From the NCBI GenBank assembly GCA_021730945.1, contig JAKFYH010000042.1:62001-126000 (forward strand): 64,000 bases of DNA, given 5' to 3'. The DNA comes from Acidobacteriota bacterium. Lineage in GTDB: Bacteria > Acidobacteriota > Vicinamibacteria > Vicinamibacterales > UBA2999. Under the pieces are notes generated by a model that saw nothing but the letters and a program-made list of their open reading frames with translations, was not told the origin of the DNA and ran no database searches. Positions 4,871 to 35,380 of the stretch are shown here, piece after piece; the first letter of the stretch is position 1, and every line of letters begins with the position of its first letter. Made by a program: the position numbers and the translations under genes.

Positions 4871-5108
4871 CAGAGCCACCGATGACACGGAAATCAACCT
4901 CAGGGCCACAGATGCCGCAGATTGCGCAGAATTAAAGAAGGAAAGCCCAATGCTCAGGTCCCTACGAAAAGTCCTTGTTTCTGTGTTATCTGCGTCATCT
5001 GCGGCCCTGGTGATCTCTGCGTCATCTGCGGCCCTGGTGATCTCTGCGTCATCTGTGGCCCTGGTGATCTCTGCGTCATCCATGGCCCTGCCGATATCGG
5101 CGTCATCA
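4871..5108. repeat. CAGATGACGCAGAT-type repeat in inverted arrangement (family B, copy 1)
   Basis: Two parts. In 4871-4935 the words GGGCCACAGATG and CCGCAGATTGCGCAGA read in one orientation. In 4984-5105 about four tandem 27-bp units read the complementary way (CTCTGCGTCATCTGCGG then CCCTGGTGAT). The 27-bp period equals nine codons, and the array lies in frame at the start of the TolB-like gene. The two parts can pair around the ribosome binding site and start codon at 4950. Confidence 0.85.
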
Positions 5109-6176
5109 GCGTCCTCTGGGTCACAATCGGCGTTGTCTGAGTCGACGTTCCTGAGCCGCGTGCGCCGGCTGACGGTGGACGGCAAGCGCGCGGGCGAGGG
5201 CTACTGGTCGCCCGACGGCAAGCGCCTGGTGTTCCAGAGCGAGCGCGACCCGGCCAACCCGTTCTACCAGATCTTCGTGCTCGACTTCGCCACCGGCGAC
5301 ACCAAGCGCATCTCGCCTGGCGTCGGCAAGACCACCTGCGCGTTTTTTCGCCCGGGCAGCAGCGAGATCATGTTCGGCTCGACCCACCTCGATCCGAAGT
5401 CGAAGCAGTACCAGGACGAGGAACTCGCGTTTCGCGCCTCGGGCAAGGAGCGGCGCTACGCCTGGGACTACGACCCGGAAATGGATATCTTCGCCGTCGA
5501 CGAAAAGACCGGCACCACGAAGCGGCTGACCACGGCCAGGGGCTACGACGCCGAGGGCGGTTACTCACCCGACGGCCAGTGGATTGTGTTCTCGTCGATG
5601 CGCGATGCCTATAACCGCACGCTCTCGGCGGCGGAGCAGAAGCAGCTCGAACTCGACGCGTCGTACTTCGCCGAGGTCTACATCATGAAGGCCGATGGCA
5701 GCGGCCAGACCCGCCTCACCGACTGGCCGGGCTACGACGGCGGCACCTTCTTCACCAAGGACGGCAAGATTGTCTGGCGTCACTTCGAGGAGAACGGGCT
5801 GGTCGCCAACGTCTGGACGATGAACCCGGATGGCAGCGACAAGAAGCAGCTCACCGATTTCGGCGCCATGAGCTGGGCGCCTTACGAACATCCTTCGGGT
5901 GAGTACTTCGTGTTTGCGTCGAACAAGCTGGGCTTCGAGAACTTCGAAGTGTTCATGGTGGACAAGGCCGGCGCCAAGGAACCGGTGCGCATCACCTACA
6001 CCGCCGGCTTCGACGGTTTGCCGGTGCCGTCGCCGGATGGCACCCAGATGGCGTTCACCTCGGCCCGCGGCGGTGGCGCCGGGTCGGCCGGTCAAATCTA
6101 CCTGGCGCAGTGGAATCACGAGGCCGCCATGGCGGCGCTCAAGGCGGCAGGTCCGCGTCAGACTCCGAAACGTTAG
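4950..6176 (+). CDS. TolB-like WD40/PD40 beta-propeller secreted protein
   Basis: 408 residues. The AAGGAAAG ribosome binding site sits just upstream of the ATG. Residues 1-60 form an export-like hydrophobic stretch made mostly of a nine-residue repeat (ISASSAALV and variants) encoded by the 27-bp DNA repeat. From about residue 70 there are six PD40/TolB-type blades, recognisable by GYWSPDGKRLVF, GGYSPDGQWIVF, MKADGSGQTRLT, MNPDGSDKKQLT and PSPDGTQMAFTS. Such propellers usually act in the periplasm as binding modules. There is no catalytic domain. It is followed closely by an M28 peptidase and may be co-transcribed with it. Confidence 0.88.
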   Translation: MLRSLRKVLVSVLSASSAALVISASSAALVISASSVALVISASSMALPISASSASSGSQSALSESTFLSRVRRLTVDGKRAGEGYWSPDGKRLVFQSERDPANPFYQIFVLDFATGDTKRISPGVGKTTCAFFRPGSSEIMFGSTHLDPKSKQYQDEELAFRASGKERRYAWDYDPEMDIFAVDEKTGTTKRLTTARGYDAEGGYSPDGQWIVFSSMRDAYNRTLSAAEQKQLELDASYFAEVYIMKADGSGQTRLTDWPGYDGGTFFTKDGKIVWRHFEENGLVANVWTMNPDGSDKKQLTDFGAMSWAPYEHPSGEYFVFASNKLGFENFEVFMVDKAGAKEPVRITYTAGFDGLPVPSPDGTQMAFTSARGGGAGSAGQIYLAQWNHEAAMAALKAAGPRQTPKR

Positions 6177-6221
6177 CCACCGAAGGACACAGGGGACGCC
6201 GAGTTCTCTTTTTTATTGAAC

Positions 6222-8045
6222 ATGACAAACACCAAACACGTCGTCGTCGCGATGGCCGCCGCGTGCCTCGTCGCCAGCACGCCAGTTTTTTCTCAAACCG
6301 CGACGTCGTCGCGGACCAGGACGCACGTCGAGACGCTCGCGTCCGACAAGTTTGAGGGCCGCCTCACCGGCTCGCCGGGCGAGAAGCTCGCCGCCGACTA
6401 CATCATCAGCGAGCTGAAGCGCATGGGCGCCCGGCCGCTGCCGGGCCTGACCGACTTCCGCCTGCCTTTCACCTTCACAGCCGGATCGAAGGACGGCGGC
6501 ACGACGTTGGCGATCACCAAAGCCGGATCGGCGCCGCAGCTGTTCTCCGGCGCAACCACGGTCCAGGCGCTGTCGTTCTCGGATTCAGCCGAGACGTCGG
6601 GCGCCATCGTGATGGCCGGTTACGGCCTGGTGGTTCCGGAGTCGCAGAACTTCGGCTACGACAGCTATGCCGGGCTCGACGTGAAGGACAAGATTGTCGT
6701 GGTCTTTCGCTACTTCCCCGAGGATGCCGATCAGCAGACGCGCGCGATTCTTGCCCGCTACGCCGACCTGCGCTACAAGGCGCAGGCCGCGCGCCAGCGC
6801 GGCGCCAAGGGCATGCTGGTGGTGACCGGGCCGCGCTCGCCCAACGCCGGCGCGGTGGTGCCCATGAGTTTTGATACCGCGATTGCCGGCTCCGGTTTGG
6901 TCGCGGCCAGCATCAGCAGTGAGGCGTTCGCCCCGATCATGGCCGCGTCGGGCAAGTCGCTCGAGGCGGTACAGAAGGAGTTCGACAGCGGCAACCCCCA
7001 CGTCGCCGGGTTCGCGATCCCCGACGTCACCGTGACGCTGAAAGCCAACGTCATTCGCCAGCAACAGACCGGGAATAACGTGGTCGGCTACCTGCCGGCC
7101 ACGGCCCCCCTGACCGGCGTCAACAAGCCCTGGGTGGCAGTGGGCGCGCACTACGATCACCTGGGCCGTGGCACGACCGGCGGGTCGCTGGCGGGCAAGG
7201 ACGAAGCCAACCAGATTCATCACGGCGCCGATGACAACGCCTCGGGATCGGCCACGGTGCTGGCGATCGGCGACGCGTTCAGCCAGCAGCCGCGCAAGCG
7301 ACACCTGCTGCTGGCGTTCTGGTCGGGCGAAGAGCTGGGCTTGCTTGGGTCGAATGCGTTTGTCACCAAGCCGCCATTTCCGCTTGAGCAGATGTCGGCC
7401 TACCTGAACTTCGACATGGTGGGCCGCGTGGCCGGCAACAAGCTGACGGTGCAGGCCACCGGCACGAGCGCGATGTGGCCGCGGTTGCTCGAGCAGGCCA
7501 ACATCGCGGCCGGGTTCGACCTGGTGTTGCAGGAGGATCCGTACCAGCCGACCGATGTTGGCAGCTTCAATACCGCCAGCGTGGCCTGCCTGACGTTCTT
7601 TACCGGCGCGCACCAGGAGTACCACAAGCCCAGCGACACCGCCGACAAGATCAACTACGAAGACCTGGTGCGGGTGGGTGAACTGGCCTCCGGCGTGGTC
7701 AGGCGGCTGATGGACTCGGCCGACGTGCCGCAGTTCACCAAGGTTGAGCAGAAGACCGAAACCGGCGGCCGCGCCGGTCTGCGCCTGTTCACCGGCACCA
7801 TTCCCGACTACGCGTCGGATGTGAAGGGCCTGCTGCTGGGCGGCGTGATCGGCGGCGGGCCGGCCGAGCAGGCCGGACTGGCCAAGGGCGACGTCATCAT
7901 CGAGATTGCCGGCCAGTCGATTACCAACATCTACGACTACACCTACGCCCTGGAGCTGCTGAAGATCGGCGAGCCGGCGAAAGTGGTCTACATGCGCGGC
8001 AGCGACAAGCGCGAGACCACCCTGACGCCGTCGGCGCGGAAGTAA
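6222..8045 (+). CDS. secreted M28 zinc aminopeptidase with PA and PDZ domains
   Basis: 607 residues from the ATG at 6222; an in-frame TTG two codons upstream is less likely. A signal peptide (1-25, ending PVFSQ) precedes an M28 core interrupted by a protease-associated insertion at about 120-240. Zinc ligands fit the family: HYDHLG near residue 310, GADDNASG with the bridging Asp, SGEELGLLGS with the catalytic Glu, NFDMVGR, and a late His in EYHKPSDT. A C-terminal PDZ domain (about 515-600, GGVIGGGPAEQAGLAKGD) could bind substrate or partners. The expected role is removal of N-terminal residues from extracellular or periplasmic peptides. Confidence 0.93.
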   Translation: MTNTKHVVVAMAAACLVASTPVFSQTATSSRTRTHVETLASDKFEGRLTGSPGEKLAADYIISELKRMGARPLPGLTDFRLPFTFTAGSKDGGTTLAITKAGSAPQLFSGATTVQALSFSDSAETSGAIVMAGYGLVVPESQNFGYDSYAGLDVKDKIVVVFRYFPEDADQQTRAILARYADLRYKAQAARQRGAKGMLVVTGPRSPNAGAVVPMSFDTAIAGSGLVAASISSEAFAPIMAASGKSLEAVQKEFDSGNPHVAGFAIPDVTVTLKANVIRQQQTGNNVVGYLPATAPLTGVNKPWVAVGAHYDHLGRGTTGGSLAGKDEANQIHHGADDNASGSATVLAIGDAFSQQPRKRHLLLAFWSGEELGLLGSNAFVTKPPFPLEQMSAYLNFDMVGRVAGNKLTVQATGTSAMWPRLLEQANIAAGFDLVLQEDPYQPTDVGSFNTASVACLTFFTGAHQEYHKPSDTADKINYEDLVRVGELASGVVRRLMDSADVPQFTKVEQKTETGGRAGLRLFTGTIPDYASDVKGLLLGGVIGGGPAEQAGLAKGDVIIEIAGQSITNIYDYTYALELLKIGEPAKVVYMRGSDKRETTLTPSARK

Positions 8046-8103
8046 CGGTGTCTGACACCGTTCCAGGCATGGATCGCAGTTTTTGGAACGGTGTCTGACA
8101 CCG
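8046..8103. repeat. paired GGTGTCTGACACC palindromes (family G)
   Basis: CGGTGTCTGACACCG occurs at 8046-8060 and again at 8089-8103. The first is followed by TTCC and the second preceded by GGAA, so the pair forms a 19-bp inverted repeat around a 24-bp centre. Each copy is itself a palindrome apart from its middle base. The second copy contains the GTG start codon of the Rieske gene. Confidence 0.85.
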
Positions 8104-8408
8104 GGTGGGTCGTCGTCGGCAAGGTTGAGGACTTCACGCCCGGCGCCGGCAAGATGGTGGTGGCGGGCGGCCGTCACGTGGCGCTCTTTCGTCTCGGCGA
8201 CCAGTTTCACGCGCTCGATAACATGTGCCTGCACCGCGGTGGGCCGCTGTGTGACGGGCTGATTCAGCAGGGCGTGGTGACGTGCCCCTGGCACGGCTGG
8301 TCGTTCGAGATTGCCACCGGCACGATGGTGCAGGATCCGCATGTGGGCGTGTCCCGGCACGAGGTGCGGGTCGAGGGCGACATGGTGTCGGTGCGGCTGA
8401 CCGACTAG
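8091..8408 (+). CDS. Rieske [2Fe-2S] ferredoxin-like protein
   Basis: 105 residues. Cluster ligands are clear: CLHRGG (Cys-X-His) near residue 45 and CPWHGW (Cys-X2-His) near residue 64. The fold is that of small NirD/biphenyl-dioxygenase-type ferredoxins, with no signal peptide, so it should be cytoplasmic. The only upstream start is the GTG at 8091 inside a palindromic repeat, giving the N-terminus VSDTGW. It could pass electrons to an oxygenase or reductase elsewhere; no partner is encoded nearby. Confidence 0.88.
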   Translation: MSDTGWVVVGKVEDFTPGAGKMVVAGGRHVALFRLGDQFHALDNMCLHRGGPLCDGLIQQGVVTCPWHGWSFEIATGTMVQDPHVGVSRHEVRVEGDMVSVRLTD

Positions 8409-29442: not shown

Positions 29443-29516
29443 GGGATCAGGGATCAGGGATCAGGGATCAGGGATCAGGGATCAGGGATCAGGGATCAGG
29501 GATCAGGGATCAGGGA
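29443..29516. repeat. GGGATCA heptamer tandem repeat (family D)
   Basis: About 10.5 perfect copies of GGGATCA with period 7. It fills the space between the two divergent promoters TACAAT (minus, 29434-29429) and TACAAT (plus, 29518-29523), including where -35 elements would lie. Confidence 0.95.
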
Positions 29517-34352: not shown

Positions 34353-35380
34353 TTTGCGACGCGCACGTGCATTTCTTTTCGCCCGGGTTCTTCGCGGCGC
34401 TCAAGGCCGACCGCGCGGCCGTCGCGGCACTCGGCATGGATTTTCCGGAGTCGATCGAGGCGCTGGCCGATCGCTGGGTGGCAGCTCTCGACGCCAACGG
34501 CGTCTCGCAGACGGCGCTGATGGCCAGCGTGCCAGACGACGCTGATTCGGTGGCCGCCGCCGTGGCGCGACATCCGTCGCGCTTCGTCGGCTTCTTCATG
34601 CTCGACCCGACCCGCGACGATGCCCTCGATTATGCGACGCGGGCCCTCGATGCCGGGCTGCGCACCATCTGCCTGTTCCCGGCGATGCATCGCTACGCGC
34701 TTCACGACGATCGCGTCACCCGCATCTTTGATCTGGCGGCCTCCTATGCGGCGCGAAACGCCGCCCCTACGAGCGCCGAAGGCGCGAGCCCTACGAGCGA
34801 AGCGAGCCCTACGAGCGAAGCGAGCCCTACGAGCGAAGCGAGCCCTACGAGCGAAGCGAGCCCTACGAGCGAAGCGAGCCCTACGAGCGAAGCGAGCCCC
34901 ACGCCCACCGCAGGTGGGCGCCCCAGCATCTTCGTGCACTGCGGCATCCTCTCAGTCGGCATCCGCAAGAAGCTGGGGCTGCCAAGCCCGTTCGACATCC
35001 GGTTCGGCAACCCGCTCGACCTGCACGGCGTGGCGCTGAGATTTCCGAACCTCAACATCATCGTTCCCCACTTCGGCGCCGGCCTGCTTCGCGAGGCGCT
35101 GATGGTCGCCAGCCTCTGCCCCAACGTCGTGCTCGACACCTCGAGCTCCAACTCGTGGATCAAGCAGACGCCCGGCCTCACGCTGGAGCAGGTCTTCCGC
35201 ACCGCCCTCGACGTGGTCGGTCCCGGCAGGCTGCTATTTGGCACCGACTCGTCGTTCTTCCCGCGTGGCTGGAACCGCGAGGTCTACGAGCGGCAGCGGG
35301 CGGCACTCACCACCCTGCAGCTGCAGGCGGCAGACCAGGCACAGATCTTCGCGGGCAACTTCGCGCGGCTGTTTGGGTAG
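34349..35380 (+). CDS. amidohydrolase-2 family metal-dependent hydrolase with repeat-encoded insertion
   Basis: 343 residues from the ATG at 34349. Metal-site residues of the TIM-barrel family are present: DAHVHFF at 4-10, FVHCGILS, IVPHFGAG and FGTDSSFF. Typical reactions are hydrolysis or decarboxylation of small aromatic or acyl substrates. Residues of about 134-190 are a low-complexity insertion made of SPTSEA repeated six times plus flanking variants, coded by family C DNA repeats. It lies between a barrel helix and the strand leading to VHCG, so in a surface loop. Translation is coupled to the MATE gene. Confidence 0.88.
   Translation: MICDAHVHFFSPGFFAALKADRAAVAALGMDFPESIEALADRWVAALDANGVSQTALMASVPDDADSVAAAVARHPSRFVGFFMLDPTRDDALDYATRALDAGLRTICLFPAMHRYALHDDRVTRIFDLAASYAARNAAPTSAEGASPTSEASPTSEASPTSEASPTSEASPTSEASPTSEASPTPTAGGRPSIFVHCGILSVGIRKKLGLPSPFDIRFGNPLDLHGVALRFPNLNIIVPHFGAGLLREALMVASLCPNVVLDTSSSNSWIKQTPGLTLEQVFRTALDVVGPGRLLFGTDSSFFPRGWNREVYERQRAALTTLQLQAADQAQIFAGNFARLFG
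34748..34920. repeat. hairpin repeat array with variable stems (family C, copy 3)
   Basis: Six perfect tandem copies of TACGAGCGAAGCGAGCCC (34792-34899) are flanked by variants with other stems: GCGGCG-CGAAA-CGCCGC (34748-34764), GCGCC-GAA-GGCGC (34773-34785) and CGCCCACC-GCA-GGTGGGCG (34902-34920). All stems are perfectly complementary. The whole array is in frame within the amidohydrolase gene. Confidence 0.93.

Follow-up and report, generated by a model that had tools for sequence, protein, structure and literature searches.

The stretch of DNA analysed here (the window; 64,000 nucleotides of an Acidobacteriota genome) holds a gene for an M28 family peptidase followed on the same strand by one for a Rieske ferredoxin, which scored 79 bits against the NirD model (cut-off 74.65). 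The junction of the two genes is occupied by a large inverted repeat (Table 1). The twin palindromes that the sequence-only reading had placed there are real: the arms of the repeat are 20 nt long, 95% complementary and separated by an 18-nt loop. The sequence CGGTGTCTGACACCG occurs exactly at 8046-8060 and at 8089-8103, each time enclosing the palindrome GGTGTCTGACACC, whose length is odd because its central T is unpaired. Inside the repeat, the window copy has kept a right inner arm; alignment of copies showed that the left inner arm matching GATCGCAGTTTTTGGAAC is mostly lost or degraded. The repeat also touches the gene upstream, in that the last base of the peptidase TAA stop codon (8043-8045) is the first A of the element.

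Table 1. Features at the junction of the peptidase and ferredoxin genes, in window positions.
Feature	Position	Strand	Basis
M28 family peptidase with PDZ domain	6216..8045	+	ORF; Pfam PF04389, E 1.5e-36; PDZ match
Rieske [2Fe-2S] ferredoxin, NirD/dioxygenase-ferredoxin type, 105 aa	8091..8408	+	PF00355, E 1e-20
GTG start codon of the Rieske gene	8091..8093	+	Inside right palindrome; sequence and orthologue comparison
REPIN-type element (probable)	8045..8104	.	Inverted GGTGTCTGACACC pair with inner complementary arms; one of 13 paired copies in the genome
Left arm of inverted repeat	8046..8065	+	Inverted-repeat search
Right arm of inverted repeat	8084..8103	+	Inverted-repeat search
Left 13-bp palindrome GGTGTCTGACACC	8047..8059	.	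Exact match, G000:C10:70047-70059
Right 13-bp palindrome GGTGTCTGACACC	8090..8102	.	Exact match, G000:C10:70090-70102
Inner right arm GATCGCAGTTTTTGGAAC	8072..8089	+	Alignment; common to other copies, including one beside a transposase gene

Gene starts were taken from a simple coding-score caller, and the ferredoxin start was compared with orthologues. The ferredoxin frame is open from the in-frame TAA at 8043, and the sole ATG, GTG or TTG ahead of an ATG at 8154 is the GTG at 8091. Starting at 8154 would cut away an N-terminal stretch that is conserved in the orthologue alignment. The view that the right palindrome carries the only plausible ferredoxin start agrees with six same-genus orthologues, which start at or near the same spot. 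The sequence-only reading had derived five ferredoxin residues from the repeat; four whole codons (GTG TCT GAC ACC) do come from it, but the fifth takes only one base.

The element region folded as RNA at -52.9 kcal/mol, compared with -32.9 kcal/mol for shuffled sequences (z -6.1; 0 of 200 shuffles as low), and as DNA it was similarly far from its shuffles (z -7.1). In this model, the ferredoxin start is predicted to be sequestered in the mRNA by the hairpin. A strong fold with a start codon inside its stem is what might be expected of a hairpin that evolved on purpose to control the M28-Rieske operon, in the manner of an attenuator or riboswitch, and that is not mobile. However, an Rfam scan of the element gave only two matches, both to microRNA models and far under their gathering scores (20-22 bits against 60-80), and there was no terminator-like site with a T-run at or after the element. 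Over a dozen unrelated gene pairs also carry the same element, and it is missing from this junction in all six same-genus ferredoxin orthologues, which makes a dedicated control hairpin very unlikely.

The palindrome is not unique to the junction. There were 51 exact copies of GGTGTCTGACACC in the genome, mostly in inverted pairs, and none of its reversed control. No copy had C or G as its central base, and GGTGTCSGACACC was absent; the central base was A or T in all 51 copies. Eight other genomes of the genus held between 0 and 21 copies with A or T at the centre (21 in G398) and 0-4 with C or G, and at least one copy of the 13-mer was found in 25 of 396 genomes sampled across the phylum. As a separate observation, one Aminicenantes genome (MAG B43_G16, here G194; loci L182 and L183) held 112 copies, some of them in close tandem series, and the sole Y1 transposase gene found in it had no palindrome in the flanks examined.

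Thirteen paired copies form hairpins and lie at gene junctions, and 13 single copies lie in genes. Flank alignment of the copies showed that the inverted pairs share inner arms, such as GTACGCAGATTCTGGAAC before GGTGTCTGACACCGT. Ten pairs were long enough for a test of inner-arm pairing, in which 157 of 170 positions paired within an element, compared with 1163 of 1530 for arms taken from different elements (0 of 20,000 permutations as high). Whole arms were swapped between elements in compensatory fashion, for example TTCCA/TGGAA in place of CGGCGG/CCGCCG. The tetranucleotide GTAG stood directly before the palindrome in only one of the 51 copies, so the tag is not conserved, and no other tetranucleotide of GTAG or GGAG type was seen at the palindrome foot across the 51.

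A perfect 13-bp palindrome with copies at gene starts could also be an operator bound by a transcription factor, for example one of the GntR type, whose operators it resembles. Yet copies are also found within genes and between convergent ones, where both facing ends are 3'; they are joined to long covarying arms and they bracket transposases. We therefore regard binding sites as a scarcely credible explanation.

The paired elements fit closely to the ends of the genes around them. We surveyed 28 ends, belonging to the 13 pairs and to the element around a transposase gene, with genes defined by coding-score calls. The first A of the element completed a TGA or TAA stop codon at 14 of the 19 ends facing a gene's 3' end; at the other five (C1 right, C3 right, both ends of C7b and C14 right), the stop lay a few bases off or inside the element. 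Where the element faced a 5' end, a possible GTG start came wholly or partly from it in six of nine cases, and the start lay outside it in the remaining three. At four of these ends (C1, C2, C6 and the transposase element) the GTG is made of the element's terminal GT and the following G, a start backed by orthologue alignments for C2 and C6. At two, the window and a gene on C14 that reads as an ABC transporter, a GTG inside the palindrome is the sole start. The palindrome was found at a further start codon in G293, of the same genus (locus L194), where the TAA of gatA directly abuts a single palindrome and gatB starts at the GTG of that palindrome (VSDTYEAVIGLEIHAQL; both names are readings of the sequences). 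The effect on stop codons has precedent, because published GTAG-tagged REPs are described as completing stop codons and as occurring within ORFs (PMC3733652, section 15). The term "start codon" is absent from the main text of that article, section 15 of which notes REPs at the N-termini of ORFs.

No clear target duplication was common to the element ends. A 2-bp TA target-site duplication fits the element between convergent genes at C7c and the comparison with an empty site at C4; it fails at most other ends, and we did not take it up. These flanks bear on the idea that the element is a MITE that depends on a different class of transposase (IS630, for instance, with its TA duplication) and lies next to a Y1 gene by chance. 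Its miniature inverted-repeat structure would suit a MITE, and both flanks are TR/YA at four convergent gene pairs, with TA on either side at C7c. On the other hand, the flanks are TC/CA at the transposase element, TG/GA at C2 and TC/GC at C1, in keeping with the lack of a common duplication, and the bracketing of Y1 genes by the palindrome recurs in several phyla, so that a MITE seems quite unlikely.

This genome has five Y1_Tnp genes. One of them (G000:C16:41671-42240, 190 aa) is bracketed by inverted 13-mers at C16:41629 and C16:42310 that have the same inner arms. Its product matched PF01797 (Y1_Tnp) at 59 bits (cut-off 23) and no other Pfam domain, and stayed below the cut-offs of the NCBIfam models, with its highest score for REP_Tyr_transpos (58 bits; cut-off 80) and a lower one for IS200 (22 bits; cut-off 55). 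H60 and H62 of the HxH (HUH) motif and the catalytic Y122 were invariant across 13 aligned sequences. The top PDB match to a profile of 13 Y1 proteins was 4er8, TnpArep (3.1e-10); a phmmer search of the PDB with the C16 transposase alone returned nothing.

The same inverted bracket surrounds a 61%-identical gene in G396 and a 38%-identical gene in G187, which belongs to a distant family. Together with the gene in G000, these were the three bracketed by this palindrome among 24 Y1 loci examined, out of 30 found, in the nine genus genomes, G187 and G194; the remaining loci were mostly bracketed by other inverted repeats. G398, with 21 copies of the palindrome and five Y1 genes, had it at none of the three genes whose flanks were examined (this genome is 80% complete). 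Other Y1 genes of the genus (L206, L208, L209, L213-L217 and L220-L222) were each bracketed by inverted repeats of their own (GGGGACTGACCCC, GGGGTCTGGCACC, GGGGTCGGGGATC and others), which are close to the published motif GGGGWSAS.

Many paired, covarying hairpin copies, together with the bracketing of a Y1 transposase gene by the same palindromes, lead us to assign the repeat to the REPIN/TIRtron type. The window repeat is very probably a copy of a REPIN-like, untagged "TIRtron" miniature element that inserted at the M28-Rieske junction and was most likely spread by the C16 Y1 transposase. By analogy with REPINs (PMC3116915, PMC8266576), the C16 Y1 protein would be what mobilises it; our data on mobility are the presence and absence of the element at orthologous sites.

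At the G396 junction the peptidase stop overlaps the ferredoxin start as ATGA (AAATGAGC; MSDFVTVGRVADF), and in G159 the two overlap as GTGA, within AAGTGAG. G398 and G348 have a spacer with a different GC-rich hairpin and an ATG start. The putative ancestral junction, as reconstructed from these orthologues, is a peptidase stop overlapping the ferredoxin start (ATGA or GTGA). In the orthologue alignment, the native ferredoxin start codon lies opposite the GAC of the right palindrome; the element therefore replaced the native start, and the start shifted two codons upstream to the GTG. The dispersed, transposase-linked element, the upstream stop that it completes and the ancestral overlap of stop and start all go beyond what the sequence-only reading had described.

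Orthologous sites with and without the element were also observed at other gene pairs. At an FKBP/rRNA-methyltransferase junction and a FabF/EtfB junction (gene names are our reading of the sequences), members of the element family are present in G398 or G293 and absent in the other aligned relatives. At the L010 junction, two relatives have overlapping convergent genes and no element. Orthologous junctions in G348, G397 and G396 (L151, L152, L154 and L155) carried other inverted-repeat families close to stop codons, one example being CGTTCGGAG...CTCCGAACG with two inner hairpins. Hairpin elements thus seem to have landed repeatedly at these junctions.

At the ferredoxin, we propose that the element inserted at an overlap of the peptidase stop with the ferredoxin start. 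Its terminal A would then complete the peptidase TAA, and the GTG of the right palindrome would start the ferredoxin and supply residues 1-4, (M)SDT. The hairpin would hide this GTG, and a ribosome ending at the TAA would melt 8046-8058, the exact partner of 8091-8103. Ferredoxin translation might in this way stay coupled to the peptidase through melting of the hairpin, a model that we hold tentatively and at rather less than even chances; it is weakened because the right palindrome can fold alone with the left arm open.

We also analysed the single copies inside genes. All 13 lie in the phase that reads VSDT; four further loci (L005, L025, L049 and L050) were left out of this set as gene-end, non-coding or doubtful calls. 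A uniform phase is also expected from codon preference. In other taxa, 855 kb of loci yielded seven isolated copies within long open frames, and only one of them had the VSDT phase. Orthologues of the in-gene copies mostly carry near-matches (VSNT, VSET, VADP and others), with no indels in most alignable cases, the exception being L048, in a variable linker with indels. For L012 and L039 there were only remote relatives, and L003, L004 and L028 had no close orthologue in the genus. The copies in a GalT-like gene and in an M48 gene are inherited, since relatives share them. Plain chance was considered as the source of the in-gene copies and fits poorly, as their centre is A or T and a GC-rich genome would be expected to use serine codons ending in G or C. 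In the GalT/HIT-like gene (L015, 1501-1513; with L131, L132, L133 and L128), the copy extends into an inner arm (GGTGTCAGACACCCTTCCAATAATTGCC), and copy and arm together replace an equal-length stretch found in G159 and G206.

Rickettsia palindromic elements are read in frame inside proteins, where their insertion makes the protein longer. The single 13-mers here are likewise read in frame; unlike those elements, they mostly bring no change in length relative to alignable orthologues. The Rickettsia elements are among those named in PMC3733652.

We then looked for the inverted pair beyond the phylum. A scan of named genomes gave at least 116 stretches with the pair, and those listed came from Bordetella, Achromobacter, other Proteobacteria, Acidobacteria, Aminicenantes, Treponema, Phycisphaerae, Bacteroidales, Actinobacteria and a Firmicutes MAG. 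A profile search among the listed stretches found five Y1 genes, four of them with the palindrome within 700 bp. When 16 genomes holding the pair were searched for Y1 genes (14 with a match), the 13-mer with a central A or T was present at 10 of the 30 loci. The palindrome brackets Y1 genes in Bordetella, Achromobacter, Chromatiales, Phycisphaerae and Bacteroidales. After merging, 59 Y1 entries had it within 400 bp on both sides (11, of which three are second copies of the same locus), on one side (5) or on neither (43).

A tree was built from 46 Y1 proteins, the other 13 of the 59 entries being left out because they were duplicates, remote or too short. The eight bracketed entries were scattered over it, with at least six label changes forced by well-supported branches, and were not clustered (200 of 500 shuffles as low). 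We thus rejected one transposase clade per palindrome; the scatter on the Y1 tree means either an old shared core or repeated adoption. Recurrence of the palindrome beside Y1 genes across phyla is suggestive only, because many of the genomes were sampled for already holding the pair.

A more far-reaching reading, which we consider doubtful, is that GGTGTCWGACACC is an ancient recognition core of many unrelated REP-type Y1 transposases across phyla, and that in this genome it has also been written, with no insertion, into coding sequence. Single copies would then arise in frame, as VSDT, at ancestral near-matches, where single-stranded palindrome DNA would perhaps anneal to similar sequence and convert it. 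Between genes, the same rewriting would show itself in start and stop codons that adjoin copies, as they do at the ferredoxin. More would be at stake if the shared core or the in-gene conversion were true.

REPIN families often have hundreds of copies. REPINs and their RAYTs were described by Bertels and Rainey (2011, PMC3116915), and the element reported here is like them in several ways: it forms inverted REP doublets with a variable, pairing spacer and compensatory changes, occurs as singlets besides doublets, and has a cognate Y1 tyrosine transposase gene beside the same repeat. Unlike REPINs, it lacks a conserved GTAG head and has a 13-bp core that is perfect except at the centre, in 51 copies. 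It also resembles TIRtrons and their TIRYTs (Di Nocera 2013, PMC3733652; also PMC6006769), in which a Y1 gene is flanked by inverted repeats that are unrelated to GTAG REPs and form moderate genomic families (PMC3733652). TIRtrons have been described in Acidobacteria, in Koribacter versatilis (PMC3733652). The motif GGGGWSAS is common to some, not all, published TIRs (PMC3733652), and GGTGTCAG of our element has one mismatch to it, at position 3. TIRYTs of subclass 2.1 have C-terminal HTH domains (PMC3733652), whereas the 190-aa protein here matches Y1_Tnp only.

The GTAG-tagged REPs are like the present elements in lying flush with gene ends, completing stops and having intragenic copies (PMC3733652). 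Unlike their TAG stops (PMC3733652), the stops here are TGA or TAA completed by the element's A, and a start codon is supplied as well. A literature search for the 13-mer and its 11-bp core found no paper with the 13-mer, the matches being on unrelated subjects by title. A search for REPs in Acidobacteria or in Bordetella and Achromobacter returned general REP and IS papers only, plus one on Acinetobacter taxonomy. The element represents a further REPIN family of Acidobacteriota that lacks the tag; it has a candidate transposase and fits gene ends with unusual precision. It documents a putatively mobile hairpin that has remodelled both ends of neighbouring genes, with element-free sites in relatives, and the identical palindrome beside scattered Y1 transposases bears on the co-evolution of REPs and their transposases.

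Other repeats in the window were of a different kind. At 4989-5119, a 27-bp tandem repeat (4.8 copies) lies in the start of the ORF at 4950-6176 and gives a repeated SAALVISAS stretch. Near-perfect tandem arrays were found at 29443-29516, with the 7-bp unit GGGATCA (10.6 copies), and at 34784-34903, with the 18-bp unit GCGAGCCCTACGAGCGAA (6.7 copies).
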